Origin: Chloroflexota bacterium
Lineage (GTDB): Bacteria > Chloroflexota > Anaerolineae > UBA2200
Length of the DNA: 64,000 nt
Direction: 5' to 3'
Assembly (NCBI GenBank): GCA_030607875.1
Contig: JAUWJD010000016.1
Location: forward strand, 1-64,000
How positions within the stretch are numbered: the first letter of the stretch is position 1; each line of letters starts with the position of its first letter. The position numbers and the translations under genes were made by a program. A model generated the notes under the pieces. The model searched no databases and had not been told where the DNA came from. It saw nothing but the letters and a program-made list of their open reading frames with translations. Shown one piece after another: positions 4,048-23,643 of the stretch.

Positions 4048-4508
4048 CTAACTCACGATCTTTTCGATCTGGATGTCCCGCTTGCCCAGTTCGGCGAAGA
4101 ACGGCGTGGGCTCCAGGCAGCCTTCTGGGGCGTACACGCCCTTGAGCTTGATCTCTCCTTGTGCCAGCATCCGTGCACCGGTGGCTGCGGAGATACCGGT
4201 CAGCCGTTTCATCTTGTCCGCAGTGCGGTAGGTGTAGGTGCGTGGCTGGCCATCTTGGGCGCAAAGTGGTAGAAAGGCCCGATGGCTCCCACGGCTGCAT
4301 CTGCATCCTGTAAGACCGAAGCCAGCGACGCAGGGTCGTTGGCGTCTACGAAGGCTGCCCTTGCCTTCTTGCCGAGCTGGTCCGCGTACTCCCCAGCGCC
4401 TGCTGCGCGGTAGTCGGCGATGACTACCTCTACGTCCGTGTGCTCGATCAGGTCCTCTACCACTCCCTGGCCCATGTCCCCATAGTCGCCCAGCACGACG
4501 ATTTTCAT
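4048..4508 (-). pseudogene. Saccharopine dehydrogenase-like oxidoreductase remnant (internal deletion and frameshift)
   Basis: The first ~90 residues, read from the ATG at 4508, are a Rossmann start typical of saccharopine dehydrogenase/Lys9-like proteins (MKIVVLGDYGDMGQGVV, then a DAAVGAIGPFYHF segment). Near 4240-4260 the frame is lost, and a second frame supplies the family C-terminus (GISAATGARMLAQGEIK, then GVYAPEGCLEP) up to the stop at 4048. Only about 150 residues remain of a family usually near 370-400, so the central catalytic region is missing. A good AAGGAGG ribosome site remains upstream of the ATG. Deletion within a once intact gene is the simplest reading; an assembly collapse is possible. 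Confidence 0.75.
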
Positions 4509-4950
4509 CGCACCCTACCTCCTTGCGGCAATGTTTCCTGCCTGAAACCAGTTTCCATAAAGGAGTGAAGCACAGCTGGTTTGCCCAGTCAAACCGGCAT
4601 GCCGGCGGGCGATGGCGCAGTGATGGTTCGCATGATGCCGCGCCTTCCTTTTGTGTCCCGTCATCCGCTGCGCTCGGACGCGGTCCCACTTGATGGACGG
4701 TCTGATTGGGTGTAGAATGCCCGACATGAGGCTGCTCAACTTCTCTTGAGGGTCGTGACGCCGGGTGAGTTCATTGCCATGTGGCAGGCGATACGTTCGA
4801 GGGCTGGAGTATCAGAACCGTTCGGAGATGGCAGCGACGGCCTTGACCTGGCGGGTGGTCTATCTGCATGATGGCTAGTGGTTGGCGGTTGGCAGTTAGC
4901 CGTAGGCGTTCTGCTCTGCGCTGCAGTCCGGGCTGAGAGGGGGCTTTGAG
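4509..4950. other. Intergenic region, 442 bp
   Basis: No convincing gene. It holds the ribosome site of the remnant upstream on the minus strand, a possible plus-strand promoter (4690-4718), and at about 4868-4900 a copy of the GTTGGCGGTTGGCAGTT dispersed repeat, shortly before the beta-helix gene. Confidence 0.6.
4690..4718 (+). promoter_or_regulatory. Possible sigma70 promoter upstream of the beta-helix gene
   Basis: TTGATG (4690-4695), 17-bp spacer, TAGAAT (4713-4718). It lies about 230 bp before the start codon at 4951, so the assignment is tentative. Confidence 0.3.
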
Positions 4951-6480
4951 GTGAAGGGAAAACGGCTTTTCAGACTGATTTGCGTGTGGATAATCGGTGT
5001 CCATCTGGCATCTGCGAGCTGCCATGCAAAAGGGCCGCAGCCGGCGCTCGGGGCTCCACCGGATTTCCCAAGTCGCCCGGAAGCTGCTGTCGCTGCCAAT
5101 ACATACTACGTTGCTCTTTATGGCAGCGATGCCAATCCAGGCACGAGGAGCGCGCCCTGGGCCACGCCGGGCTATGGCTCGCGACAGTTGCAGCCCGGGG
5201 ATACGTTGATCATCCTGGGTGGGCGCTACGTTTTGAGCGACTACGACGAGGACATCGTGACGCCGCGCTCTGGCAATGCCAATGCCTGGATCACCATCCG
5301 CGGGGAAGCAGTCAACCGCCCTATCCTGGCTGGGCGCGACAACCTGGCCATGGCCGTCAACCTCTCTGGGGTGAGCTATGTGCGCGTGGAAGACTTGGAG
5401 GTCACCCATGATGCGACAGCTCGTGGCGAAGGGATATACTTCCGCGATGGGATTCTGATCGTCGATCAACCGGCGCAGCACATCATCCTGCAGTACCTCT
5501 ACATCCACCACATCGACGAGTTTGCGATGAACTTTCAGGATGTGAGTGACCTTCAGGTGCTCGACTGTCGCATGGAATACTGTGGCTTTGGGGCTATGGG
5601 TGGGCCGGATGCGGAGCACGGAGGGTGGCAGAACGTGCGCGTGGAGCGCTGCCGGTTGTCCTATGGCGGGCACTATTACCAGGGAGGCGACGGATCAGAT
5701 CGACCCTACGACCGGCCCGATGGCTTTGGGATCGAGCCCTCGGACGGACCCATCGAGATTGTGGACACAGTGGCCGAGCACAACTATGGTGACGGTCTGG
5801 ATTCCAAGGCGGCCAGCACGACCATCCGCCGCTGTTTCGTGGCCAACAACTCCTGTGATGGCGTCAAGCTGTGGGGTGGCAACAGCAGGGTAGAGAACAC
5901 ACTCATCTATGGCCGCGGAGATGGAAACTCTGAGCCGACTCCCTGGGCCGCAATTGTCATCGGTACGGAACAGCGACACACGCAGTTTGAACTGGTTAAC
6001 GTAACAGTGGATGACACCCTGGGCCACAATTACCTGGTGTACGTGCAGTACGACGAGGCCAACGTTCCTATCCACCTGACGATCAAGAACAGCATCTTTC
6101 GCGGGATTGGGCCCAGATGCCACATCTTCATAGGCTGGGCGACGCAGCTCACGGCAGTACACAACCTGTTTTGGTTGCCGCAGCCTGAGTATGTCTTGGA
6201 GCACGGCGATTCATTCTACACAGCGGCGACCATTGGCACGTTGGGCCGCGGCAACCTGTATGGGGACCCACGGTTTGTCGCGCCAGCGTGGGGCACTGCT
6301 GGCAACTACGACCTGCAGTCAGGCAGCTCGGCGATCAATGCGGGCACGGCCGAGGGAGCGCCGGCCGACGACCTCGCTGGGCGCGCTCGCGATGCCCGGC
6401 CTGACATCGGCGCGTATGAGTACTGGGTGCCGGTGGGGAGAATCTGGCTGCCTATCGTGCTCAAAGGTGCAGCGCGTTAG
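4951..6480 (+). CDS. Secreted right-handed parallel beta-helix protein
   Basis: Predicted exported protein with a hydrophobic signal segment in the first ~27 residues (GTG start). After it comes TYYVALYGSDANPGT, the usual entry strand of DUF1565/pectate-lyase-like beta-helix proteins, then many short repeating coils (residues ~60-400) such as YLYIHHIDEFAM and VERCRLSYGGHYY, and a closing segment with INAGTAEGAPADDLAGR, common in this fold. Proteins of this type are often polysaccharide lyases or surface adhesins, but no lyase active site could be assigned by eye. The extreme C-terminus is IWLPIVLKGAAR, the shared motif seen in five other exported proteins of the window. Confidence 0.8.
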   Translation: MKGKRLFRLICVWIIGVHLASASCHAKGPQPALGAPPDFPSRPEAAVAANTYYVALYGSDANPGTRSAPWATPGYGSRQLQPGDTLIILGGRYVLSDYDEDIVTPRSGNANAWITIRGEAVNRPILAGRDNLAMAVNLSGVSYVRVEDLEVTHDATARGEGIYFRDGILIVDQPAQHIILQYLYIHHIDEFAMNFQDVSDLQVLDCRMEYCGFGAMGGPDAEHGGWQNVRVERCRLSYGGHYYQGGDGSDRPYDRPDGFGIEPSDGPIEIVDTVAEHNYGDGLDSKAASTTIRRCFVANNSCDGVKLWGGNSRVENTLIYGRGDGNSEPTPWAAIVIGTEQRHTQFELVNVTVDDTLGHNYLVYVQYDEANVPIHLTIKNSIFRGIGPRCHIFIGWATQLTAVHNLFWLPQPEYVLEHGDSFYTAATIGTLGRGNLYGDPRFVAPAWGTAGNYDLQSGSSAINAGTAEGAPADDLAGRARDARPDIGAYEYWVPVGRIWLPIVLKGAAR

Positions 6481-6651
6481 CTTGTCATAACCTTGAGGTA
6501 TGTTCCATACGCTGGGTTGCAGTGACCTAGACCTTCCTTCGTCAAGCACGGGCAGCCCTGTGGGCACGCTCGCGCTGCACGTCTATGTGCTGGCGCCTGG
6601 CAACGCCCGTTACGCGGATGGCGCGCCGGTGCTGATTTGGGCTGGGCAGCT

Positions 6652-7263
6652 TCACCTTCGGCTGGGCTGTGGAGAGAGCATCCGAGAGGTCAGGACGACG
6701 TAGCGATTGGGTTGGTCACAGATTGTAGCACAGTCCAGGTCGGCTGCAGCCAACAGGCTGAACATCTCTGCTTCAGCGGGAATGATGTCATTGGCAATGG
6801 GTTCACCGATGCTTTGGTGGATGGCGTTCACCGTCTCGCGGCCCTTGGGATGGCAGATGAGCAGTCTGCCGCCAGGTTTCAGCACGCGGCGCGTCTCGCG
6901 TAGGGCGGCTGGTTCGTCTGGAAAATGGGGCAAGGCGGAATTGCAGATGACCCAGTCCAAGGTCTGATCCGTTAGCGGCAGACTTTGCCCATCTCCCTGT
7001 ACGCAGTGTACGTTATAGCCTTTGCGCCGTGCTAACCTGAGCATTTCAGCGGAGATGTCCAGGCCAATGATGAGGCCGTCTCGCCCCACCTTCTCCAGGA
7101 GCATAGGAAAAAGCACTCCCGTTCCACATCCCAGGTCCAGCACCTTTGCCCCCGGCTGGATGTCCGCGCTGGCTATGATTCCGCGCAGTCGGGCGATGAT
7201 GTCCTCGGTGAGCATCGTGTCCCATTTGCTGGCCATTTGATCGAACCATTCACGGTGATTCAT
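6652..7263 (-). CDS. Class I SAM-dependent methyltransferase
   Basis: Cytoplasmic methyltransferase of the UbiE/COQ5-like group; substrate unknown. Motif I is VLDLGCGTG (about residue 42), motif II includes LIIGLDISAEML, motif III/post is LDWVICNSALPHFPD, followed by RVLKPGGRLLICHPKG. The start is taken as ATG at 7263 (MNHREWFD), since only a TTG lies three codons upstream at 7272. Total about 203 aa, typical for a stand-alone domain. It converges on the beta-helix gene, and nothing nearby indicates a pathway. Confidence 0.82.
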   Translation of the reverse strand: MNHREWFDQMASKWDTMLTEDIIARLRGIIASADIQPGAKVLDLGCGTGVLFPMLLEKVGRDGLIIGLDISAEMLRLARRKGYNVHCVQGDGQSLPLTDQTLDWVICNSALPHFPDEPAALRETRRVLKPGGRLLICHPKGRETVNAIHQSIGEPIANDIIPAEAEMFSLLAAADLDCATICDQPNRYVVLTSRMLSPQPSRR

Positions 7264-7411
7264 CCGGCGCAATCTTCCCCCTCTAGCAACTTGATGTCGA
7301 GACCTACAGCGGATATTCTACACACGTACCCACGATGCGCAAATGCGTGAGTGTGGAGGGGGCCATTTTGTCAAATCGCTGAATTGGTTCTATCATCAAA
7401 AAGGTACAGGG

Positions 7412-7440
7412 TTGACTACCAGTGAGCCCGGACGTATCTT
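7412..7440 (+). promoter_or_regulatory. Sigma70-type promoter of the alcohol dehydrogenase remnant
   Basis: TTGACT (7412-7417), 17-bp spacer, TATCTT (7435-7440), shortly before a GGAGG site and the ATG at 7463. The signals outlived the gene they served. Confidence 0.5.
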
Positions 7441-7462
7441 GCACGGATAGGAGGTTGGAGAC

Positions 7463-7627
7463 ATGGAGACGACGCTGGCAATGCTCTTACATTCACCCCA
7501 ACCGATCGAGGAGAGTTCCCTGGTGCTGTCTACCGTGCCCAAACCGGTTTCAGGGCCTGGGCGTGTGCGGCTGCGAGTGTGTGCCTGTGGCGTCTGCCAC
7601 ACTGACCTGCATATGGCAGAGGGAGAG
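7463..7627 (+). pseudogene. N-terminal remnant of a zinc-dependent alcohol dehydrogenase
   Basis: An ATG with a good ribosome site opens about 54 residues that match the N-terminus of medium-chain zinc alcohol dehydrogenases: MLLHSPQPIEESSLVL, then RVRLRVCACGVCHTDLHMAE with the first catalytic zinc Cys in GVCHTD. Beyond that the sequence no longer resembles the family; it becomes repeat-like (ACACGAAGCACACGAAG near 7710). The frame happens to stay open into xdhC, giving a false fusion of 426 codons. A promoter and ribosome site inside this stretch show xdhC is separate. Confidence 0.72.
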
Positions 7628-7810
7628 ATTCTTATGTTGGAAGAGGCCAATGCGGCGCGAGGTCCGCGGAAGCGCTGTGCTGAGCATCCCGTAGAAGGAT
7701 CATCGTACACGAAGCACACGAAGAAAAAGCCGAACAACACGAGATCTCAATGGTGCTTCTTCGTGCCAGGCCGACCAGAAACGGGTTTCTCCATTGGTCG
7801 TTGCGCGTTG

Positions 7811-7839
7811 TTGACCTGGTCCCATCGATGCGCTATAAT
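7811..7839 (+). promoter_or_regulatory. Sigma70-type promoter of xdhC
   Basis: TTGACC (7811-7816), 17-bp spacer, perfect TATAAT (7834-7839). It lies 70 bp upstream of the GTG at 7910, inside the apparent open frame, and supports starting xdhC at 7910. Confidence 0.7.
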
Positions 7840-7909
7840 CCGCCGTGGATTCTCGGCACTTTACCTGGAAGGCGTGCACTCTGCCAGGATTTTGTTTTGT
7901 GGAGGAGCA

Positions 7910-8743
7910 GTGGAGGAGAACGAGGCTGTCTACGAAGCTACATTGCAGGCCATCCGCAAGAACCAGCCAGCCAGTCTGATAACTGTGATCGAGGCACTCG
8001 GATCGACGCCACGGGAAGCAGGAACCAAGATGCTGCTGCGGGCGGATGGTTCCACGGTGGGCACGATCGGCGGAGGCGCGATGGAAGCAGCCGCCATTAT
8101 GGACGCAAGGGCTGCTTTGGGCAGTGGCCAATCGCGCTTGGTGGAGTACTCGGTCCGTGGGGAGGACGAGCGCGACCTCGGCGTCTGTGGTGGCCAAGTG
8201 CGGGTTTTCATCGAGGTGCTGCGCCTGAAGCCGACCCTACTCATTGCTGGGGCTGGACACGTGGCGCAGCCGCTGGCCCGGCTGGGGCACCTGCTGGGCT
8301 TTTGCACGGTGGTCGTTGACGACCGGGCCCAACTGGTCAGCCAGGAACGTTTTCCGCACGCTGATGAGCTAGTGGTCACGGATTTCGATCACCTCTTGGA
8401 GAGGGTCCCGATTACGACGCAGACCTTTGTGGTCATTGTGACTCATGGCCATGAGCATGATGCGCTGGTGCTGCGTCAGGTGCTGACGACCACGCCAGCC
8501 TACATTGGCATGATTGGCAGCCGCAAGAAGGTGCGCAAGGTGTTCGACAACCTGCTGGCCGAAGGTGTGCCCGGGGAGAAGCTGGCGCAGGTCTATGCGC
8601 CGATAGGGCTGCGTATCGGTGGGCAGACGCCGGCAGAGATCGCGCTGAGCATTATGGCGGAGATCGTTCTGCTGCAGCATGGTGGCAGTGGGGAGCCGTT
8701 CAGTTGGCGGGATAACCCACTGAGAGGATCGAAGAGCGACTAG
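7910..8743 (+). CDS. xdhC: XdhC/CoxI family molybdenum-cofactor insertion protein
   Basis: XdhC-type proteins bind and deliver sulfurated molybdenum cofactor to xanthine dehydrogenase-like enzymes. The N-terminal XdhC_CoxI domain (residues ~10-90) contains SLITVIEALGSTPREAGTKM and the GTIGGGAMEAA segment; the C-terminal Rossmann domain (from ~105) starts LLIAGAGHVAQPLARLG and includes YIGMIGSRKK. Length 277 aa is normal. Start: GTG at 7910 with GGAGGA at 7901-7906 and a promoter just upstream, preferred over the much longer open frame from 7463. No molybdenum hydroxylase subunit lies nearby, so its client is unknown. Confidence 0.88.
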   Translation: MEENEAVYEATLQAIRKNQPASLITVIEALGSTPREAGTKMLLRADGSTVGTIGGGAMEAAAIMDARAALGSGQSRLVEYSVRGEDERDLGVCGGQVRVFIEVLRLKPTLLIAGAGHVAQPLARLGHLLGFCTVVVDDRAQLVSQERFPHADELVVTDFDHLLERVPITTQTFVVIVTHGHEHDALVLRQVLTTTPAYIGMIGSRKKVRKVFDNLLAEGVPGEKLAQVYAPIGLRIGGQTPAEIALSIMAEIVLLQHGGSGEPFSWRDNPLRGSKSD

Positions 8744-8804
8744 AGTCGCCACCACGGAAACGAATAGAGGCTAGACACACTCAACGTGGAGGAATGGACA
8801 AAGC

Positions 8805-10448
8805 ATGGATTGGCAGAGTAAGGTAGCAGAGCTTGTACATCAGCATCCCAATGTGCAGCATAACCTGCCCAGGCGGGAGATGATCGCGCAATCTGTTGCG
8901 CGCAAGGAGGCGTTGGTTGCCGCAAATGGCGCTCTGGCTATGTGGACGCCGCCCGAGTCCACCGGGCGCAGCCCCAAGGACACATACATCGTGCGCCGCG
9001 CGAAGAGCGAGGAGACCATCGATTGGGATTCACCGAACAATATCCCCATGGCGCCTGATACGTTTGACATGGTCATGGCGGACGCGTTGAGTCTCCTGGC
9101 GGGCAGGGAAACGTTGTACGCCACCGACCGCGTCTTGGTCGCCGATACCTCGTACGCGATGCCCGTCAAGACCCTCACAGATTGGGCCCTCAGCGCCCTG
9201 TTTACCGACAGCATGTTCCGGCCGGTTCCCCCAGACATTGAGCGGAGCATTCTGGCTGAGCAGGGATTCACGTTGATTGCCATTCCCTATCACAAGCTGG
9301 ACCGGGAAAAGTACGAAGGACGCCTGCGCAAGTTTCCGGATGGTCGCACTTCGAACATGGCCGTGACAATGGACTTTGATCGGCGACTGGGCGTAGTGTT
9401 CGGTTCGGCCTATGGCGGCAGCGTGAAGAAGCTGATGTTCACGGTGATGAACTACGTGCTGCCAGGTGTGGGGATACTGCCGCTGCACTGCTCGGCCAAC
9501 GAAGGACCTGGTGGCGACACCGCTCTGCTGCTCGGTCTCTCTGGCACGGGCAAGACAACGCTCTCGGCTGACCCACGCCGCGCCCTGTTGGGCGATGATG
9601 AGCATGGCTGGAGTGACAACGGCATCGCGAATTTCGAGAACGGGTGCTACGCCAAGCTGATCAACCTCCGTCAGGAGAAAGAGCCAGAGATCTGGAACGC
9701 TGTGCTGCACGAAGCACACTACCTGGAGCACGGCGCGATCGTCGAAAACGCCATGATGTATCCCGACGGCCGTTTTGACCTGGACGATGACCGCTTGACC
9801 CCCAACTCGCGGGCCTCTTACCCACTGCGCTTTTTGAGCAACATCAAGGAGCCGCCCACAGGCTCGCACCCCAAGACGATCCTCTTCCTCACCGCCGATG
9901 CCAACGGAGTGATACCCCCGATTGCGAAACTGACGCCGGAGCAGGCCATGCTGTGGTTCCTGATGGGCTACACCAGCAAGCTGGCCGGCACCGAGACGGG
10001 CATTACTGACCCGGTGAGCACCTTCTCCCGCTTTTTCGGTGAGCCGTTCATGCCGCGCAGTCCGGATGTGTACGCTTCGATGCTGGGGCAGCGCATGCGT
10101 GGCCATGGGACCGAGGTGTACCTGGTCAACACCGGCTGGAGCGGAGGGCCGTTTGGCGTTGGCGCACGCATGGATATTGACATAACTCGCACGCTAGTGC
10201 ATGCTGCTCTGAGCGGCCAGTTGAGAGATCTCGAATATGACGAGGACCAACTGTTCCACATCCTGGTGCCTCGGACCTGCCCCGGCGTCGACCCTCGGAT
10301 TCTCTACCCGCGGAACACCTGGGAGGACAAGGAGGCTTGTGACCGCAGGGCGCGCAAGCTAGCCGGTGATTTCTGCAGCCATTTCGACAGAACATACGGG
10401 AACAAAGGGATCGATCACACCGTAAGCAGCCAGTGCCCCGGAAAGTAG
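8805..10448 (+). CDS. pckA: Phosphoenolpyruvate carboxykinase (ATP)
   Basis: Cytoplasmic enzyme converting oxaloacetate plus ATP to phosphoenolpyruvate, CO2 and ADP, the entry step of gluconeogenesis. The ATP-type P-loop GLSGTGKTTLS (about residue 243) and the family signature LLGDDEHGW (about 264) are present, along with RTSNMAVTMDF and the Arg-rich C-terminal region. Length 547 aa fits the ATP-dependent class; the GTP class differs in these motifs. The ATG at 8805 follows GGAGGAATGG at suitable spacing. It stands alone between xdhC and a zinc-finger protein gene. Confidence 0.95.
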   Translation: MDWQSKVAELVHQHPNVQHNLPRREMIAQSVARKEALVAANGALAMWTPPESTGRSPKDTYIVRRAKSEETIDWDSPNNIPMAPDTFDMVMADALSLLAGRETLYATDRVLVADTSYAMPVKTLTDWALSALFTDSMFRPVPPDIERSILAEQGFTLIAIPYHKLDREKYEGRLRKFPDGRTSNMAVTMDFDRRLGVVFGSAYGGSVKKLMFTVMNYVLPGVGILPLHCSANEGPGGDTALLLGLSGTGKTTLSADPRRALLGDDEHGWSDNGIANFENGCYAKLINLRQEKEPEIWNAVLHEAHYLEHGAIVENAMMYPDGRFDLDDDRLTPNSRASYPLRFLSNIKEPPTGSHPKTILFLTADANGVIPPIAKLTPEQAMLWFLMGYTSKLAGTETGITDPVSTFSRFFGEPFMPRSPDVYASMLGQRMRGHGTEVYLVNTGWSGGPFGVGARMDIDITRTLVHAALSGQLRDLEYDEDQLFHILVPRTCPGVDPRILYPRNTWEDKEACDRRARKLAGDFCSHFDRTYGNKGIDHTVSSQCPGK

Positions 10449-15078: not shown

Positions 15079-15107
15079 TTGACAAGTTGGCGCTTTTATG
15101 GTAATAT
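15079..15107 (+). promoter_or_regulatory. Strong sigma70-type promoter of the cohesin gene cluster
   Basis: Perfect TTGACA (15079-15084), 17-bp spacer, TAATAT (15102-15107). A start of transcription near 15114 would leave a leader of about 70 bases before the ATG at 15187, which is preceded by AAAGGGAGGG. Confidence 0.72.
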
Positions 15108-15186
15108 GTGACTGGAGCAGTGTTGCAAAGCCTCAGAATCTCTGTGCCAGGCCGTCCGGCACAATTCCACAAAAGGGAGGGAAGAA

Positions 15187-18100
15187 ATGCCCAAGGCAGG
15201 TAGAGTCTTCGTTGCGTTGAGCGTCACTGTGGTTTTGTTGGTTGCGTTGGCCGTCTTGATGGCCGGAGGGCAGGGCCTGACCGTTGCAGAGGCCCAGGAG
15301 TCCACCTACCACACCCTGCGCGTCTATGGACGTGCAAATCAGGGCGCAGGCCCGCTCACTCCGGTTGGCTACTACGGAGTGCTAGGTCCCACCGTCGCTG
15401 ACCCCGGGACAGGGTTCCCTCCCGAGGACGCGCCGTACACTGAGCCTGAACCCATCTTCAACCCTCAGCTCGAACAGGCCCCGATCAAGGACTCTATTAC
15501 CTTCAACCCTTTGTTCATGTCCGAATTCGAGACTTTTGATGAGAATCGCGCCCAGGGTCTGTACAACAAGATCTTTGCCGGTGCGCGCAATGCCACCGAG
15601 AAGGTATGGTTCCGCATGTGGTACGAGCCCTGGCATTGGGACAAGGACCTGAATGCGGATAACTTTCTGGACATAGACCCCGATACGCTGATGCCCTATC
15701 CGCAGGGGGAGCACGACGAATGGTACCCGGCGGTGATGCAGGAGTTCACCTACATGCTGCTGGAAGCCGATCTGCTGGCTAACGAGCCGCAGCCGCTGGC
15801 CGGCCAGGTGGGCCGCACCAGCTTCGTCTTCCCGGTGGGCTTGCGCCAGCAGGACCTGTTTGAGCCCGGCGGCGAAGTGGACACCACGTCGGCAAACGCG
15901 CGCTATGGCTACGGCCTGACCAGCCTGGATGGCGACTTTGATGGCGAACCGGACATCGTGTACGTTGAGAGCGAGCTGACACTGTTCGACAAGACCCGCA
16001 TCGCCGCCGACTTTGATGGCGATGGCGACATTGAGGCGCTGGATCGGGATGCAGATGATCTCAGCGGAGACGAATTGGCCATATTCCGTCTGGGGACAAA
16101 GAGCCGTGAAGTGGGCGAGGCGCTTCAGTTCCTGGATCACCTGATCATCGTCAAGGCTGTGTTCAACGACAGCGTCCTGCTCGACGTCTGGTATACGGGC
16201 GACATGGTTCCCGCCTACCTGGGCAACAAGACCATCTTTGTCGGTGACATGCTGCTCTCTGGGAGCAGCGGGCCGGGCCAGCACATCCGAGCCGCTTCTA
16301 ACGGCGGGCCGGGGACCAACGCCTGCGACTTCCCGACCGGGCCCTGGGTCGCCTACCTGGAGAGTATCGACCAGCTGGAGGACCAGGCGCGACTCATGGT
16401 TGGCCGTGCCCTGGGTGCCACGTACAGCGCCATGGAAGAGGCGCCATTCCAGACTGACCTGTGGCCTGGAGACCCCTGGTTCCTCAAACGCTTCTACGTC
16501 GATGGACACGAGTACAACGTGGTGGCGATCAAGACGGAGGATGGTGCACCGATTGTCTATTCGCCGGTAGACCCTTGTGATCTGGACACCGATGACGATG
16601 GTGAGATCGATGTATGGACACCGCCGCAAGATCCGACGCGGTTCAAGTTCATCACTATCCGCACGCCGATCCCCAAAGAGGGCACGTACGACGATCCCCT
16701 CACGGGCTACCTGATCGAGCAGCACTCGGTGCGTCTGCAGCCCTATGAAGAGACCAACGAGCTGTCGGTTCTACCCCCGTACAACTACGAGCACTATCTC
16801 ATTCTGGACGTACAGGCCATCGATTGGTTCACGTGCGACGAGGACGACGTGGACTACATCGGGCCTCTGGGTGGTCCTGTGCCACCGATCTTGCAGCAGA
16901 ATGGCCCCTTCCCCTACCAGGGCGTCGGGCCCTACAGCCCGTACAGTGACCCGCGCGAGATGGCACTGTTCTACGTGGAGGAGGGCAAGAACCCGCAGTT
17001 CCTGGGTGAGCTGAAGCAGAAGTACGGCGAAGACGTGGGGGCAGGGGAGTTCTGGTACGTGGAGCAGTTCCACACGCTTCCCTGGGAGTACACCGAGTTC
17101 GTACTGCCGGACGTGGACCCTGCGCACATCGACGACTACAGGGATCTGTACCTGCTCACGAGCGCGTTCACAGCTACCCAGAGCGAATACGTCCTCTTCA
17201 CGCAGGACGTACCGACGGATACCACACCGACCTACAATCTGTACTGGGACTATGATGAGGAATGCTGGGCGCGAGGTGAGCCTACAACCTACATCACGGC
17301 CACCGCGCCCATCCCCTGGAGTCCGCGTGTCAAGTTCTGGTTCGACCCGGCTGAGGGTGGGAAGAAGTACAAGGACGACCAGGGGATCCGCCTCTACGGC
17401 TATGACAGCGAGGGGCCCGGGGAAAAAGTCGATGATCCTGAGGATTCTTCTTATCCGGTGGAGGTCTGGCCCTACACCGACACGTGGGCGGTCTTCAACC
17501 CGCAAATGGACCAGGCCCCACGCAAGGATTCGTTGACCTTCAACCCGGCGTATATGAACGAGTTCATCCATGGCAACGAGTCGCTGGCCAGCCTGTACAG
17601 GCAGATATCGATCCGCGAGCAGAATGCCTACGAGAAGGTCTTTTTGCGCATGTGGTACGAGCCCGAGTACCTGGACAAGATACTGGTACTGGATCCTGTG
17701 GACCCGACTCCGCCGTTTACTGCCACATCAGTCTACACGTTCCCGGCAGTGATGCAGGAGTTCACCTACATGTACCTCGACACCCGCGCCCAGCCGGCCA
17801 GCGCCCAGCCCGGGTCCAGCGCTTTTGCTTTCCCCATGGCCACAGCCGCGGGCCAGTTGCCGAGGCCGGATCCGCTGACGTTCGCCCTGCCGGCCGCGCA
17901 ACTGCCCAGCTTTGGCTGGGGACTGACCAGCTTCGATGCCAACTTTGACGGGCAGCACGACATTGTGTTCCTGCACAGTGAGCAGTCGTTGTCGACGACA
18001 ACCGGAATACAGGCTGACTTTGACGGCGACAGCGTGGTGGATTGGCTTGATGAGGATGCCACGGCTCTAAACGGCAACGAACTGGTCATCTTTGCCCTGG

Positions 18101-20358
18101 AAGACATGCTGCTGCAGCGCGGCGAGAGCGTGCAGTTCCTCGATCACATGGTCACGCTGGAAAACGTGTCAGCGAGTTCCGCTCTGCTCAAACTCTGGTA
18201 TACTGGCGGCGGCTATCACCCCGTGTCTGGCGGATTCTCGCTGCACCCTGACGAGCTCGGGTCATACACGTTGCAAGCAAATGAGATGGCGATCGTCAAC
18301 CGGTTCCCTCCGGCACGGGTTCTGCCCGCTGGTGGCGATAACCTGGGCTCTGTTGACGGTGCCTGGTTCGTCTTTGTCAACGCCATCAACAGCAGCAACG
18401 AGACCGTCTCGCTGCTAGTTGGCCGCGCGCTGGGTGCGACCCACAGCGCCATGGACGATGGCGCCGGCGGGCACGATTTGGAGCCTGGAGATCCCTGGTA
18501 CCTGAAGCGCTTCTTCGTCGATGGACACGAGTACAATGTCGTGGCGGTATATACGGAGCCGGCTGCGATCATCAACCCCGGCGACGAAGACTATGAGTTC
18601 AAGTACATCACCATCCGCACGCCGGTGCCCAAGGAGAACTTTGTCAACTACGAGGATTCGCAGAAGCTGGAAGGCTACTACAGCGGCGTTGTCTGGGGAG
18701 TGGATACCTCCTACATCTCCGTGATGCCGCCGTTCAACTTTGAGCATACCTCTCTGGAGGACGTCCAGGATCTGGCGGAGAGAGAGGTGCCGCCGACCGG
18801 CTGCCTGGACGAGTGGGAGCAATTCGTCTTTGGCAACCGCCGGTTCTACGATACCAGCTTGTGGTGTCCACCAGTGGATGGGTGCCTGAACTGCCGCGGC
18901 AAGCCAATCAAGAACATACCACCCTTCCAGATTCGCATCGTGGACGAGGATCGAGAACCCCAGTTCTCCGGCGAGCTGAAAGAGAAGTACTACGAATGTT
19001 GCGACGACGAGTTGTGGCAGACGGAGCAGTGGCGCATCGTGCCCGACCAGTACACTGAACTGCAGTTGCCTGCCGGCCAGAAATACCTTGTGACCAGCAA
19101 TTGGCAATCAAACCAGAGCCGTGCTCACTACTATGGCTGCGGCGACGGCGGTTGCTACGATCAGCCTCTCTTGCATGGGTGGAGCGGTGGCCAAATTCCC
19201 GACTGGAATGTAGAGATAGTCGCCCCTGCCCCTCCGTCCATACCGCCGATAAGGTACAGGTTCTACGATGCTCAGTTCGGCGAGGATCCTTTGCGCGTCA
19301 AGTTCTGGTACGACCCGCAGGATCCGAAGGACATCTACGTCAATACCTGGCAAGGGCCTGGCCCAGCGCCGACACCGACGCCTACGGCCAGTCCCACGCC
19401 GCCAGCCGGTGGCACGGGCACCATCACCGGCAAGGTGACGTTGATGGGCCGCACCAACTTCAGCGGTGCGGTGGTGACGGCTGGTGGCGTGAGCGCTGTG
19501 ACCGATGCGAGCGGCTACTTCACCTTGTCCAGTGTGCCGGTGGGTACGCACGACGTCGTTGCGGACATGGATGGCTACCTCGAGCATGTGAAGAGCGGCG
19601 TAGTGCTGGCGGCTGATGCCATCCTGGTGCTTCCGGACGTGCAGTTGCTCGGCGGTGATGCCAACGACGATTGCCTGGTCAACATCTTTGACCTGGTCAT
19701 CGTGAGCTGGAACTATGACTCCTCGCCGCCCAGCGATCCACGGGCGGACATCAACGGCAACAACATCGTGGACATCTTTGACCTGGTGCTGGTGGGGGCC
19801 AACCTGGATCAGGCCTGCCCGGGTGTTTGGGCTGCGCCAAGCATGGCTGCTCCACAAGCGGTGGCCCCGGCGCACCTGCGAGTTTGGCCGGCTGATCCAT
19901 TGCTGGTCGGTGTCGGTGGTCTGGTGAAGGTCACACTGGAACTGGAGGACGTCGAGAATCTCTTTGGCGTGGACGTCCGCTTGACCTTTGATCCAGATAT
20001 CCTGGAAGTGATGGATGCAGATGCGGTCACGCCGGGCGTGCAGATCCACCGGGGAACCTTCCCTGATCCGCAGTCGGGCGAGGTTGCTCTGGACGAAGCC
20101 GACAATGAACAAGGCACGGTGCAGTATGTCATTACTCTTGTGCGCCCCGCCGAGCCAGTCAGCGGAGACGGTACCCTGTGTTCCATCACTTTCCGCGCCA
20201 AGGCTGCCGGGACCAGTGCGCTGGCGTTCGAATCGGCAACCTTGTTGGATCCGGCTGCGGTTGAGATCGAAGTGACCACACATGATGGCGCGGTGCAGGT
20301 GGGTGATGACTACACCTTGCTGTACCTGCCCATCATTCGCAAGGCCGGACCACGGTAG
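15187..20358 (+). CDS. Giant secreted protein: duplicated module, dockerin-like and cohesin-like domains
   Basis: Exported protein of 1723 aa with a signal peptide (VTVVLLVALAVLMAGG). Two homologous halves of about 680 aa follow: FNPQLEQAPIKDSITFNP near residue 88 pairs with FNPQMDQAPRKDSLTFNP near 768, and MWYEPWHWDKD pairs with MWYEPEYLDK. Their function is not recognised. After a Pro/Thr linker (~1395) come a carboxypeptidase regulatory-like domain (~1410-1485), a dockerin-like pair of calcium loops (DANDDCLVNIFDLVIV and DINGNNIVDIFDLVLV, ~1489-1535) and a cohesin-like domain (~1560-1700; VENLFGVDVRLTFDPDILEV). The C-terminus is LYLPIIRKAGPR. Dockerin and cohesin on one chain would permit self-assembly or binding to the two cohesin proteins next door. 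First gene of a three-gene cluster. Confidence 0.85.
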   Translation: MPKAGRVFVALSVTVVLLVALAVLMAGGQGLTVAEAQESTYHTLRVYGRANQGAGPLTPVGYYGVLGPTVADPGTGFPPEDAPYTEPEPIFNPQLEQAPIKDSITFNPLFMSEFETFDENRAQGLYNKIFAGARNATEKVWFRMWYEPWHWDKDLNADNFLDIDPDTLMPYPQGEHDEWYPAVMQEFTYMLLEADLLANEPQPLAGQVGRTSFVFPVGLRQQDLFEPGGEVDTTSANARYGYGLTSLDGDFDGEPDIVYVESELTLFDKTRIAADFDGDGDIEALDRDADDLSGDELAIFRLGTKSREVGEALQFLDHLIIVKAVFNDSVLLDVWYTGDMVPAYLGNKTIFVGDMLLSGSSGPGQHIRAASNGGPGTNACDFPTGPWVAYLESIDQLEDQARLMVGRALGATYSAMEEAPFQTDLWPGDPWFLKRFYVDGHEYNVVAIKTEDGAPIVYSPVDPCDLDTDDDGEIDVWTPPQDPTRFKFITIRTPIPKEGTYDDPLTGYLIEQHSVRLQPYEETNELSVLPPYNYEHYLILDVQAIDWFTCDEDDVDYIGPLGGPVPPILQQNGPFPYQGVGPYSPYSDPREMALFYVEEGKNPQFLGELKQKYGEDVGAGEFWYVEQFHTLPWEYTEFVLPDVDPAHIDDYRDLYLLTSAFTATQSEYVLFTQDVPTDTTPTYNLYWDYDEECWARGEPTTYITATAPIPWSPRVKFWFDPAEGGKKYKDDQGIRLYGYDSEGPGEKVDDPEDSSYPVEVWPYTDTWAVFNPQMDQAPRKDSLTFNPAYMNEFIHGNESLASLYRQISIREQNAYEKVFLRMWYEPEYLDKILVLDPVDPTPPFTATSVYTFPAVMQEFTYMYLDTRAQPASAQPGSSAFAFPMATAAGQLPRPDPLTFALPAAQLPSFGWGLTSFDANFDGQHDIVFLHSEQSLSTTTGIQADFDGDSVVDWLDEDATALNGNELVIFALEDMLLQRGESVQFLDHMVTLENVSASSALLKLWYTGGGYHPVSGGFSLHPDELGSYTLQANEMAIVNRFPPARVLPAGGDNLGSVDGAWFVFVNAINSSNETVSLLVGRALGATHSAMDDGAGGHDLEPGDPWYLKRFFVDGHEYNVVAVYTEPAAIINPGDEDYEFKYITIRTPVPKENFVNYEDSQKLEGYYSGVVWGVDTSYISVMPPFNFEHTSLEDVQDLAEREVPPTGCLDEWEQFVFGNRRFYDTSLWCPPVDGCLNCRGKPIKNIPPFQIRIVDEDREPQFSGELKEKYYECCDDELWQTEQWRIVPDQYTELQLPAGQKYLVTSNWQSNQSRAHYYGCGDGGCYDQPLLHGWSGGQIPDWNVEIVAPAPPSIPPIRYRFYDAQFGEDPLRVKFWYDPQDPKDIYVNTWQGPGPAPTPTPTASPTPPAGGTGTITGKVTLMGRTNFSGAVVTAGGVSAVTDASGYFTLSSVPVGTHDVVADMDGYLEHVKSGVVLAADAILVLPDVQLLGGDANDDCLVNIFDLVIVSWNYDSSPPSDPRADINGNNIVDIFDLVLVGANLDQACPGVWAAPSMAAPQAVAPAHLRVWPADPLLVGVGGLVKVTLELEDVENLFGVDVRLTFDPDILEVMDADAVTPGVQIHRGTFPDPQSGEVALDEADNEQGTVQYVITLVRPAEPVSGDGTLCSITFRAKAAGTSALAFESATLLDPAAVEIEVTTHDGAVQVGDDYTLLYLPIIRKAGPR

Positions 20359-20472
20359 TCATGGTAAGTAGGACGGCAGGCGGGGTGCGTCCTGCTGCCC
20401 GCGCAGCGGGGCACGCCTCAGCCTGTGGTTTCTTGATCGGACGTAAGCTATTCTTGCAAAGGAGGGACATCA

Positions 20473-21570
20473 ATGCGGAAAGGAACTAGTCGAGTTATCC
20501 TGTTGACGCTGGTTGTGCTCATGGTGTTGCTGCCTGTTTCCACGGCCTTGGCCCAGGCGACCATCGTGCTGGTGAATCCGCCATCGCAGTCGGTGGACGT
20601 GGGCCAGACGGTCATTGTGGAGATCAAGGTGGATACGGTGACTAACCTGTATGGCGTGGACATCCGCCTGAGCTTTGACCCAGCCAAGCTGCAGGCCCAG
20701 GACGCGGACGGCAATGCTGCCAATGGCGTGCAGCTCGAGCCTGGCAACTTCCTGAATCTAGGAGCGGGCTTCCTGGCGAAGAACTCGGTGGACAACACAA
20801 CGGGCCAGGTGCAGTACGTCTTTGCGCTCATGGCTCCTGCTTCACCGGTGAGCGGCACAGGCGTGATGGCGCGCATCACCTTCCAGGCCCAGGCCGAGGG
20901 CAATGCCGTCATCTCGCTGGACAGCGTGACCTTGTCCAACGAGCAGGCACAGCCCATTCCGGCAACGCTGATGAACGGCTCGATCACGGTCTTGCCGGTG
21001 CCTGGACCGACGCCTACGCCTTCGCCGAGTCCTACCAGCCCGCCAGGCCCGACGCCAACTCCGGCGCCAACTCCGGTGCCAACTCCGGTGCCTGGAGGAG
21101 GGTTCTACTACACGGTGCAGTGGGGCGACACGCTGTACGGCATCGCGCGGCGCTTTGGCGTCACGGTGGCTGCCATTGTGCAGGCCAACAACATCGCCAA
21201 CCCCAACTACATCCGCGTTGGTCAGGTGCTGTGGATTCCAGGGCAGGCGCCGCCGCCTCCTCCGCCGACAACGACCTACGTGGTGCAAGCGGGCGACAAT
21301 CTGTACCGCATCTCGCTAAAGTTCGGAGTGACGGTGAATGCCATTGTGGCGGCCAACAATATCATCAACCCATGGTACATCTACGTTGGCCAGGTGCTGA
21401 CCATCCCCGTGGGTGGCGCACCTCCGGCCAACACGTATGTTGTGCAGCCAGGTGACACGCTGTATGGTATTGCCGCCAAGTTCGGGATCAACATGTGGAC
21501 CATCGTCACTCTCAACAACTTGCCCAATCCCAACCTGATCTACGTGGGGCAGATTCTACAGCTTCCGTAG
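20473..21570 (+). CDS. Exported cohesin-like protein with three LysM repeats
   Basis: Signal peptide (VILLTLVVLMVLLPVSTALA) and then a cohesin-like domain (residues ~32-175) with TNLYGVDIRLSFDPAKLQ and SPVSGTGVMARITFQA, clearly related to its two neighbours. A Pro-rich linker leads to three LysM modules (~213-257, ~272-317, ~323-365), each with YxVQxGDTLYxIAxxFG and NPxxIxVGQxLxIP. LysM binds N-acetylglucosamine-containing polymers such as peptidoglycan, so this protein could hold dockerin-bearing partners at the cell wall. AAAGGAGGG precedes the ATG. It lies 114 bp after the giant gene and is followed by a terminator-like hairpin. Confidence 0.88.
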   Translation: MRKGTSRVILLTLVVLMVLLPVSTALAQATIVLVNPPSQSVDVGQTVIVEIKVDTVTNLYGVDIRLSFDPAKLQAQDADGNAANGVQLEPGNFLNLGAGFLAKNSVDNTTGQVQYVFALMAPASPVSGTGVMARITFQAQAEGNAVISLDSVTLSNEQAQPIPATLMNGSITVLPVPGPTPTPSPSPTSPPGPTPTPAPTPVPTPVPGGGFYYTVQWGDTLYGIARRFGVTVAAIVQANNIANPNYIRVGQVLWIPGQAPPPPPPTTTYVVQAGDNLYRISLKFGVTVNAIVAANNIINPWYIYVGQVLTIPVGGAPPANTYVVQPGDTLYGIAAKFGINMWTIVTLNNLPNPNLIYVGQILQLP

Positions 21571-21589
21571 GCCGAAGTAGTCCAAAAGG

Positions 21590-21620
21590 CCAGGCTCGTG
21601 TCTTCTCGGCACGAGCCTGG
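21590..21620 (+). terminator. Hairpin terminator after the cohesin-LysM gene
   Basis: A perfect 11-bp stem, CCAGGCTCGTG / CACGAGCCTGG, with a 9-base loop, 20 bp after the stop codon. The following T-run is short, so intrinsic termination may be weak. Confidence 0.6.
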
Positions 21621-22020
21621 TCCGTGCTGCTTTGTCTCATGGACCTCTTGGAAGCCTGCTGCCGGTGCGAGTGACAGGCACGGGTGATGCTGCCTGCTCC
21701 AGCCGGCGAGGCGTGTCGTGACTGCGGGATGGCATCGCTTCCGGCGGCTGCGCCCTTTGCCGCTCCAGAGTTTTCCCCGGCATCTTTTTTTCGACAGCTT
21801 ACAGAGTACTGCGTCAGTTGCCAGACCTGAGCAGCCGCTCTCATATCGCCGAAGGTCCCGCCGAAGGTCTTGTCGCCGAAGATCTTGGCGAAGACAAGGC
21901 CAAAGGCGACAGCCGAAGGGTCCCGCACCGACGGGATGGCTCGACGGGACGGCAGTCTGACCAAAGAGGTCTAGCATCGATGCGCGAAGCAGTATGATCT
22001 CTCCGTTTGTTTCCCCTCAT
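21621..22020. other. Intergenic region with GCCGAAGGT repeat
   Basis: No gene seen. From about 21845 to 21960 several GCCGAAGGT or GGCGAAGAC-like units occur in a row, related to the arms around galU and to part of the element at 28382-28663. Confidence 0.5.
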
Positions 22021-23190
22021 ATGCCGAAGCGGCGAACCAAACGCGGAACGCTTGCGGGCCTTTTCCTGATCGCAGCGGTGGCTATTCCTCTGCTGGCCAG
22101 TACCGGGCGTGCGGCACAGGGAACGCAAGTTGTGGTTGTGCCCGCTTCCGTGGTCGTGGATCCGGGTGAGATGTTCACCGTTGACGTTGAGGTTCACGAT
22201 GTGGTCGATCTCTACGGTCTGGACATCCGTCTGGTTTTTGATCCCACCATTCTGGAAGGCCAGGACGTTGTGGCAGGTGCTTTTCTCCCGCACACAGTGT
22301 TTGAGGCGAGTAGAACTGTGGACAACGCAGCGGGAGAGGTGCGATACGTCGTTGCCCTGATGCCCCCTTCCACAGCCTTGAATGGCAGCGGTGTATTGGC
22401 CAGGGTCACGTTTCGCGCGCGCAGCCCTGGCAGCAGCGAGCTGCACCTGAGTGTCATGCTGGCAAGCGATCTCGCCGAGGCCATCCCCGCCGAGGTGAGC
22501 GGGGGCTCGGTGGTCGTCAGCGGAGACACGCCAACTCCGTCACCCACAGGCCCGGCTGGAGCGCGTCGCGCTTTCTTACCCATCGTCCGGCGGGGTTTTC
22601 CAGCGCCTACCCCTAGCCCCACGCCCACGCAGACAGCGACGCCGTCTGTCACCGCGACGCCCACGGTGACAGGCAGTGTGACACCGTCGGCGACCCCTTC
22701 GCCCACGGTGAGCGTGACGCCGCAGTATCAGCAGTTGCTGGTCAATCCCAGCTTTGAGACAGACGAAGCGTGGATTCGTCAGGGAGGCTATCTGCCAGGC
22801 TATTCTGTGTCTCGCGCGCGCAGTGGTTTGAGATCCATGCGCCTGGGCATCGTCGCGCCCTATCCTTTGGAAGTGTACTCTTCGGTGCAGCAGACGGTGG
22901 ATATCCCCAGTGGAGCCACGGAGGCGCTGCTGTCTTTCTACTACTTCCCGGTCAGTTCCTCTGATGACAGCGACTACCTCTACGTGGTGCTGTATCGAGC
23001 CAGTGATCACTACAGGTTGCGCACTGTGACGTGGATGGAGCGTCACCAGGCGTGGAACCTGCAGACCCTGGACTTGCTGGAGTATGCCGGGCAGCAGATC
23101 GAGCTGCGCCTCGGCCTGTACAGTGACGGGCAGGGCGTGACAGCGGTGTATCTGGATGACGTCGAGCTGTGGGTGGCGGGTAGCGGGTGA
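22021..23190 (+). CDS. Exported cohesin-like protein with C-terminal jelly-roll-like domain
   Basis: Signal peptide (KRRTKRGTLAGLFLIAAV), then a cohesin-like domain (residues ~30-165; VVDLYGLDIRLVFDPTILEG, GSGVLARVTFRARSPGSS). Next come the motif AFLPIVRRGFP, a Pro/Thr linker, and a ~150-residue C-terminal domain (NPSFETDEAW to YLDDVELWV) shared with the first gene of the window. The start is chosen as ATG 22021, since the Lys/Arg-rich signal peptide begins there; ATG 21994 is in frame and possible. Neither has a clear ribosome site. The last four residues (AGSG) come from the repeat arm that starts at 23173; the paralogue instead ends LWVY. Confidence 0.83.
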   Translation: MPKRRTKRGTLAGLFLIAAVAIPLLASTGRAAQGTQVVVVPASVVVDPGEMFTVDVEVHDVVDLYGLDIRLVFDPTILEGQDVVAGAFLPHTVFEASRTVDNAAGEVRYVVALMPPSTALNGSGVLARVTFRARSPGSSELHLSVMLASDLAEAIPAEVSGGSVVVSGDTPTPSPTGPAGARRAFLPIVRRGFPAPTPSPTPTQTATPSVTATPTVTGSVTPSATPSPTVSVTPQYQQLLVNPSFETDEAWIRQGGYLPGYSVSRARSGLRSMRLGIVAPYPLEVYSSVQQTVDIPSGATEALLSFYYFPVSSSDDSDYLYVVLYRASDHYRLRTVTWMERHQAWNLQTLDLLEYAGQQIELRLGLYSDGQGVTAVYLDDVELWVAGSG

Positions 23191-23274: not shown

Positions 23275-23643
23275 GTGGACTATCGCACAAGCAGAGCGTG
23301 GCAGAAGGCCGACGATCTGGCGGTGGCGGTCTACGAGGCGAGCAGGAGCTTTCCCAAGGAGGAGACGTACGGCCTGACCTCGCAGATGCGCCGCGCTGCC
23401 GTTTCCATTGCTGCAAACATTGCCGAGGGCTCTGGCCGCAGCACCAGAAAAGACTACTTACATTTCCTGTACCAGGCACGAGGCTCCCTGCGAGAAGCCG
23501 AGTATTATGTCCATTTAGCGCAGCGCCTTGGCTACATCGACGAGGGAACCGGCCACAACCTGCGAGTTTCGGCGGACGAGACTGGCCGCGCTCTACATGG
23601 TCTGATCAACCACTGGCAAGAACAGACAGGCAAAACAATCTAG
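23275..23643 (+). CDS. Four-helix-bundle protein (23S rRNA intervening-sequence protein family)
   Basis: Small cytoplasmic protein (122 aa) of the S23/IVP four-helix-bundle family, related in fold to the Avd accessory protein of diversity-generating retroelements. Typical marks: RAWQKADDLAVAVYEAS, FPKEETYGLTSQMRRAAVSI, AANIAEGSGR and LREAEYYVHLAQRLGYI. The GTG start at 23275 has GGGGAG just upstream. The molecular function of free-standing members is unknown. It sits alone between inverted arms (23173-23228 and 23726-23789) that abut the ends of the genes on both sides, so gene and arms look like one inserted unit. No reverse transcriptase and no 23S rRNA are nearby. Confidence 0.88.
   Translation: MDYRTSRAWQKADDLAVAVYEASRSFPKEETYGLTSQMRRAAVSIAANIAEGSGRSTRKDYLHFLYQARGSLREAEYYVHLAQRLGYIDEGTGHNLRVSADETGRALHGLINHWQEQTGKTI

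Follow-up and report, generated by a model that had tools for sequence, protein, structure and literature searches.

Three consecutive plus-strand genes, here A, B and C, each with a cohesin, lie in a 64,000-nucleotide stretch of DNA (the window) from a Chloroflexota bacterium of the class Anaerolineae (assembly GCA_030607875.1, contig JAUWJD010000016.1), and raise the question of what a cohesin-dockerin pair is used for outside a cellulosome. The window is nearly the whole of contig C18 (64,765 bases), and the source genome comprises 3.37 Mb in 69 contigs and is 84% complete. The explanation that we consider probable as a whole is that A is an exported, possibly surface-layer (S-layer)-like protein, held at the wall by its dockerin through the cohesin and LysM repeats of B.

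Domains were assigned with the Pfam curated cut-offs (cohesin PF00963, 24.1 bits; Dockerin_1 PF00404, 22.9 bits; CarboxypepD_reg PF13620, 32.3 bits), and coordinates are collected in Table 1. The cohesins of A, B and C all exceed the cut-off, and a Sec-type hydrophobic leader, judged by eye, opens each protein, in agreement with the three exported cohesin genes described by the first-pass annotation, a reading of the letters made without database searches; its placing of the second cohesin on three LysM repeats held as well. It had also seen two dockerin calcium loops beside the cohesin of A. These begin at amino acids (aa) 1491 and 1521, both are canonical F-hands (D-x-N-x-D/N...D, positions 1, 3, 5, 9 and 12) with a helix after each in the model, and the same dockerin segment exceeds the Pfam cut-off in orthologues (24.6, 31.0, 28.7 and 25.8 bits), A orthologues being 51-61% identical to A. 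A calcium-loop pattern search at the DNA level gave counts at chance level only. The X-dockerin-cohesin tail of A was modelled with AlphaFold2 (pLDDT 90.7, pTM 0.84) and compared using Foldseek. The cohesin matched cellulosomal cohesins and the non-cellulosomal Archaeoglobus cohesin 2xdh (TMt 0.81), with E values down to 3e-11, and the X-dockerin matched the type II X-dockerins of CipA and ScaA (2b59_B, 4wi0_B, 5g5d_B) with a TMt of about 0.7 over about 150 columns (2b59_B, TMt 0.71, E 4e-9). For the tail of A, the proposed structure check thus returned solved cohesins and type II X-dockerins and no unrelated immunoglobulin (Ig) or carbohydrate-binding module (CBM) fold. In the model, an Ig-like X module packs ahead of the dockerin as in the type II X-dockerin dyad, which supports a true dockerin preceded by an X-like module in A. 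The cohesins of B and C are known from sequence alone.

Most of A consists of two tandem copies of a module, MOD, of about 650-690 aa each (36% identity, E 3e-94), the duplication of about 680 aa that had been reported for this protein. A is acidic (isoelectric point 4.2, 2.4% lysine). Pfam gave no family for the MOD copies of the window and weak matches only for a few homologues, a sequence profile search of the PDB gave chance hits only, and a Foldseek search with the MOD2 model, of moderate confidence, gave a best E of 0.04 with low probability and a poor TM-score, which was counted as no PDB fold match. MOD was present in 25 of 396 sampled Anaerolineae genomes and, in a phylum-wide sample of 400, in three, all Anaerolineae; within these searches it appears to be an orphan family restricted to that class. 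Every intact copy seen was a tandem pair (one MOD gene of G136 was split across frames, and G090 and G002 had partial MOD matches only).

In a first comparison, A and B stood side by side in the same order and with the same domains in eight genomes, which argues that the arrangement is not due to chance. In all, A and a cohesin-LysM gene adjoin in 12 genomes of five families (G000, G001, G003-G007, G013, G045, G048, G076 and G168), with the cohesin-LysM gene on the opposite side of A in G168, and a LysM gene of any kind adjoins A in 15 genomes of six families. A C-type gene (cohesin plus jelly-roll) comes after B in G003 and G005 and is 3.6 kb distant in G006; in G048 it is a related gene that follows. 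In four same-family relatives the A-B pair lies close to hisS and/or rnc, as it does in the window, an indication of vertical inheritance. In the B orthologue of G005 (L054:7652-8635), part of the first LysM repeat reads as X (withheld or ambiguous bases).

The coupling domains can change while MOD stays. In G033, G066 and G093, A keeps both MODs and a C-terminal domain, named FYG here after its VNFYG motif, replaces X-dockerin-cohesin; the LysM gene beside it encodes four FYG domains, then three LysM repeats, and no cohesin. A of G020 also ends in FYG, and the next gene encodes three FYG domains, a jelly-roll, two cohesins and one dockerin; A of G276 is the same, its neighbour being cut by the contig end. 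FYG, which has no annotation and spans roughly 95 aa (WVNFYG...PVGA.V.A.DP.G..CG...GDTI.F.ING), occurs in the A-family proteins and neighbours of one clade (L156:9511-11808 and 4249-9384; L159:1780-5100 and 5137-9807). Pfam gave no more than a weak PapC_C match, on the FYG-bearing neighbours, and no FYG was seen in the A loci fetched from other lineages. In a maximum-likelihood tree (midpoint root, for drawing only), the five FYG genomes formed one clade (f16+f29, support 92/98) among dockerin-bearing lineages, so that the swap looks like one replacement event. In G063 (record L066), A ends in a jelly-roll and has neither dockerin nor cohesin. That genome yielded no cohesin-LysM gene, although the contig ends 68 bases past A and B could sit in the gap, which makes G063 weak as a second clean loss event. 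Since the MOD pair was kept when the dockerin was replaced, and the LysM neighbour changed to match, display of the module at the wall is suggested to be the conserved function, the cohesin-dockerin pair being one exchangeable way of achieving it. The MOD pair, with a conserved LysM partner whose coupling domain changes, is the most distinctive part of the system.

Besides A, 12 further dockerin proteins are encoded in the genome. Eight share the class of A (class 1, DLV(I/L)V-type loops); of these, one is staphylococcal nuclease (SNase)-like, one joins an MBL fold to an LTD domain, one combines SpoIID with an amidase and one is weakly similar to GH10. Of the other four (class 2, DFS(L/V)L-type loops), two are S9/esterase-like and bear CBM96-type domains, and two resemble glycosidases. 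Three of the 12 have weak or partial glycosidase similarity, and no clear cellulase family was found among them. The cohesins also fall in two groups, A, B and C against four others (support 1.0 in a small tree), and A, B and C are all the class-1 cohesins found; a further partial cohesin hit at C8:135177 stands outside the class tree. Both modules are carried by two proteins, A (class-1 dockerin, class-1 cohesin) and L077 (class 2 for both), and like class probably binds like. The earlier statement that no hydrolase is adjacent is correct for the cluster and misleading for the genome, where several of the 12 dockerin proteins are hydrolases. A minimal, non-cellulolytic scaffold describes the cluster insofar as it shows no hallmark of a cellulosome, each protein in the window having a single cohesin, unlike a cellulosomal scaffoldin with several cohesins and a cellulose-binding module, but the cluster is not isolated, as eight dockerin proteins share its class. 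The class-2 system is found at L077:4607-9696, L080 and L081 (contigs C8 and C29 of the same genome; cohesins VDGAEVH, dockerins DFSLL). The dockerin cargo includes two unusual proteins, the SNase-like one at L079:2604-3671 (contig C27) and the SpoIID plus amidase one at L076.

Under the favoured explanation, A would be an exported, acidic, calcium-loop-rich surface protein with its two orphan modules facing outwards. Its X-dockerin would dock, presumably in a calcium-dependent manner, in the cohesin of B, and the three LysM repeats of B would anchor the pair to peptidoglycan. The cohesin of A would be left free for a second class-1 dockerin, either of another A, giving chain or lattice growth, or of one of the eight other proteins; the head-to-tail chaining proposed earlier from the presence of both modules on one polypeptide would be possible. 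C would serve as a second cohesin carrier, its jelly-roll reaching glycans of the envelope or exopolysaccharide. A bolder version, which we think doubtful, makes A the founder of a new surface-layer-like protein class in bacteria, with a lattice-forming tandem module, exchangeable locks that hold it non-covalently to peptidoglycan (X-dockerin with cohesin-LysM in most lineages, FYG with FYG-LysM in one other and perhaps a jelly-roll in yet another) and a free cohesin that docks dockerin-bearing enzymes.

The same parts could be read as an enzyme-recruiting scaffold, in which the cohesins of A, B and C hold dispersed hydrolases at the wall as in a small cellulosome and the MODs only bind substrate. 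This fits the eight other class-1 dockerin proteins, with their nuclease-like, MBL-fold, amidase and weakly GH10-like members, and the location of all three class-1 cohesins found in this one cluster. We nevertheless judge it unlikely: there is one cohesin per protein, the cohesin proteins lack a cellulose-binding CBM (A, B and C had no Pfam match to any CBM), and clear polysaccharide hydrolases are few in the class-1 set. In addition, the FYG clade keeps the MOD pair although its A has neither dockerin nor cohesin, so the module is not retained for enzyme docking; an orphan MOD, paired with a LysM protein that switches its coupling domain when A does, makes A look more like displayed cargo or a surface-layer protein than an enzyme scaffold. 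The co-changing coupling domains bear also on binding in cis, in which the dockerin of A would bind the cohesin of the same chain, folding or capping the tail with no part in assembly. Some 20 residues separate the two modules, and the model of the tail is of high overall confidence; still, a coupling domain that changes together with that of the LysM neighbour suggests an intermolecular role, and the cohesin of B would be left unused, so that this arrangement seems very improbable. An adhesin or aggregation system, with the cohesin and dockerin of A linking cells to each other or to matrix and the MODs binding a ligand on cells or surfaces, would suit a large, exported, acidic, calcium-loop-rich protein with a swappable C-terminus, and the MAM/CBM-like jelly-roll common to C, gene 3-1478 and the A of G063. 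It appears decidedly unlikely, as neither Pfam nor the fold search with MOD2 gave a known adhesin domain or fold.

Several observations weigh against a wall-held, S-layer-like A. The profile search proposed in the first-pass annotation passed for the cohesin in all three genes, but the dockerin of A itself scored below the PF00404 cut-off (13.7 bits for the whole protein, 16.5 bits for the 56-aa segment), and the orthologues of G001 and G004 have a 6-aa insertion in the first calcium loop. The plan of A beside a LysM gene has exceptions in G153, G136 and the genomes of family f38: no cohesin-LysM gene was found in the genome of G153 despite its dockerin-bearing A, that of G136 lies elsewhere, away from A, and f38 is untidy, some A copies of G042 lacking a dockerin despite a cohesin-LysM gene in the genome, which is not adjacent to A. 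The S-layer family PF07752 (Methanosarcina type), considered on account of the tandem duplication, had no match at E ≤ 10 in the source genome. Codon usage gave no sign of high expression of A, although ribosomal genes barely differ from background, which leaves that comparison uninformative. A family-level Fisher test (p = 0.033) was withdrawn because of the mixed make-up of f38 and the non-independence of families.

Among known systems, the arrangement resembles the type II X-dockerin-cohesin anchoring of the cellulosome (CipA X-dockerin and SdbA cohesin, PDB 2b59) in that an X module directly precedes the dockerin in A, the cohesin is on a separate protein that is predicted to be wall-anchored (B), and the modelled fold matches. 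It differs in the lack of a multi-cohesin scaffoldin and of a cellulose-binding module, in LysM in place of an SLH anchor, and in a dockerin carrier that is a giant orphan-module protein, neither scaffoldin nor cellulase. Outside cellulosomes, cohesins and dockerins are well established (Peer et al., 2009, as cited in PMC9012536) and, as here, occur as single modules on a variety of exported proteins in non-cellulolytic settings, the Archaeoglobus fulgidus cohesin (2xdh) being among the closest folds. In contrast to those, a conserved two-gene unit with a LysM anchor, an orphan tandem-module protein and evidence of coupling-module replacement are found here. In ANME-2c archaea, proteins with S-layer domains and dockerins are described, and the dockerin is proposed to tether proteins at the outer layer of the cell (PMC9012536), which is similar to the role suggested for A, whereas A has no detectable S-layer family match and would be held on a bacterial wall with a LysM anchor. 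The Chloroflexota filament Litorilinea aerophila, of the same phylum as the host of A, has an S-layer-like protein lattice by cryo-electron tomography, its protein not being named in the portion of the source consulted (PMC13319060); a link with A is hypothetical, as no homologue of A is shown there for that organism. Cohesins and dockerins have been reported as absent from five Anaerolineae genome bins and from A. thermophila (PMC4877987), whereas both are plentiful in other Anaerolineae. Non-cellulosomal cohesin-dockerin pairs are widespread, mostly with no assigned job, and the comparative data here point to a predicted one, namely to fasten a giant, conserved surface protein onto the wall; its partners and classes are delimited well enough for pull-down testing. 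MOD is a concrete candidate for S-layer-like layers within its own lineages. The cohesin-dockerin lock itself is known from cellulosomes; as far as we found, a giant MOD protein with lineage-specific lock swapping is not described in the open-access literature searched.

Table 1. Features of the A-B-C cluster and related elements (window positions)
Feature	Position	Strand	Details
Promoter-like site upstream of A	15079..15107	+	TTGACA-17-TAATAT, 10/12 matches, TG precedes second hexamer
Gene A	15187..20358	+	ORF (open reading frame); 1723 aa; order MOD-MOD-linker-X-dockerin-cohesin; predicted exported
MOD1, first module copy	15316..17385	+	Profile coordinates; no Pfam family over cut-off
MOD2, second module copy	17386..19350	+	No Pfam match; AlphaFold2 pLDDT 69, pTM 0.78
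X-like module of A (CarboxypepD_reg, PF13620)	19414..19641	+	39.2 bits
Dockerin of A	19651..19806	+	Two calcium-loop repeats, loops beginning at 19657 and 19747
Cohesin of A	19870..20307	+	PF00963 34.0 bits; fold matches 2xdh, 6kgc_A
Gene B	20473..21570	+	ORF; 365 aa; signal peptide-cohesin-3xLysM
Cohesin of B	20560..20997	+	PF00963 48.2 bits
Three LysM repeats of B (PF01476)	21103..21567	+	173 bits in total
Gene C	21994..23190	+	ORF; 398 aa; signal peptide-cohesin-linker-jelly-roll
Cohesin of C	22120..22524	+	PF00963 36.8 bits
Jelly-roll-like (MAM/CBM-like) domain of C	22714..23178	+	InhA-like_MAM 16.7 bits, below cut-off
Second jelly-roll copy, gene 3-1478 (truncated by contig start)	999..1475	+	Sequence match to C

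Position 15079 is the first base of the promoter-like site and no codon of gene A; three such sites were found against 2.3 expected, which is near chance frequency. A and B are separated by 115 bp, with an AGGAGG Shine-Dalgarno site before B and no terminator-like site found between them, and B and C by 423 bp. The recurrence of the jelly-roll of C in gene 3-1478, claimed earlier, was borne out (59% identity, E 2e-52), and a profile search of the PDB with this domain gave weak matches only. A beta-propeller-like protein (1629-3881, Sortilin-Vps10/BNR matches) adjoins gene 3-1478, outside the conserved cluster, and a small ORF directly after C (23275-23643) resembles, by eye, the four-helix-bundle family of 23S rRNA intervening-sequence proteins. 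Many exported proteins of this genome and its relatives carry the motif aromatic-[LI]-P-[IVL]-[IVL]-x-[RK], C-terminally or before PT linkers, including A at its C-terminus (LYLPIIRK), C near 22.6 kb (AFLPIVRRG), gene 3-1478 (VFLPIVLRG), the A of L066 (LYLPIVSKR) and proteins of L077; it is possibly a sorting or processing signal.

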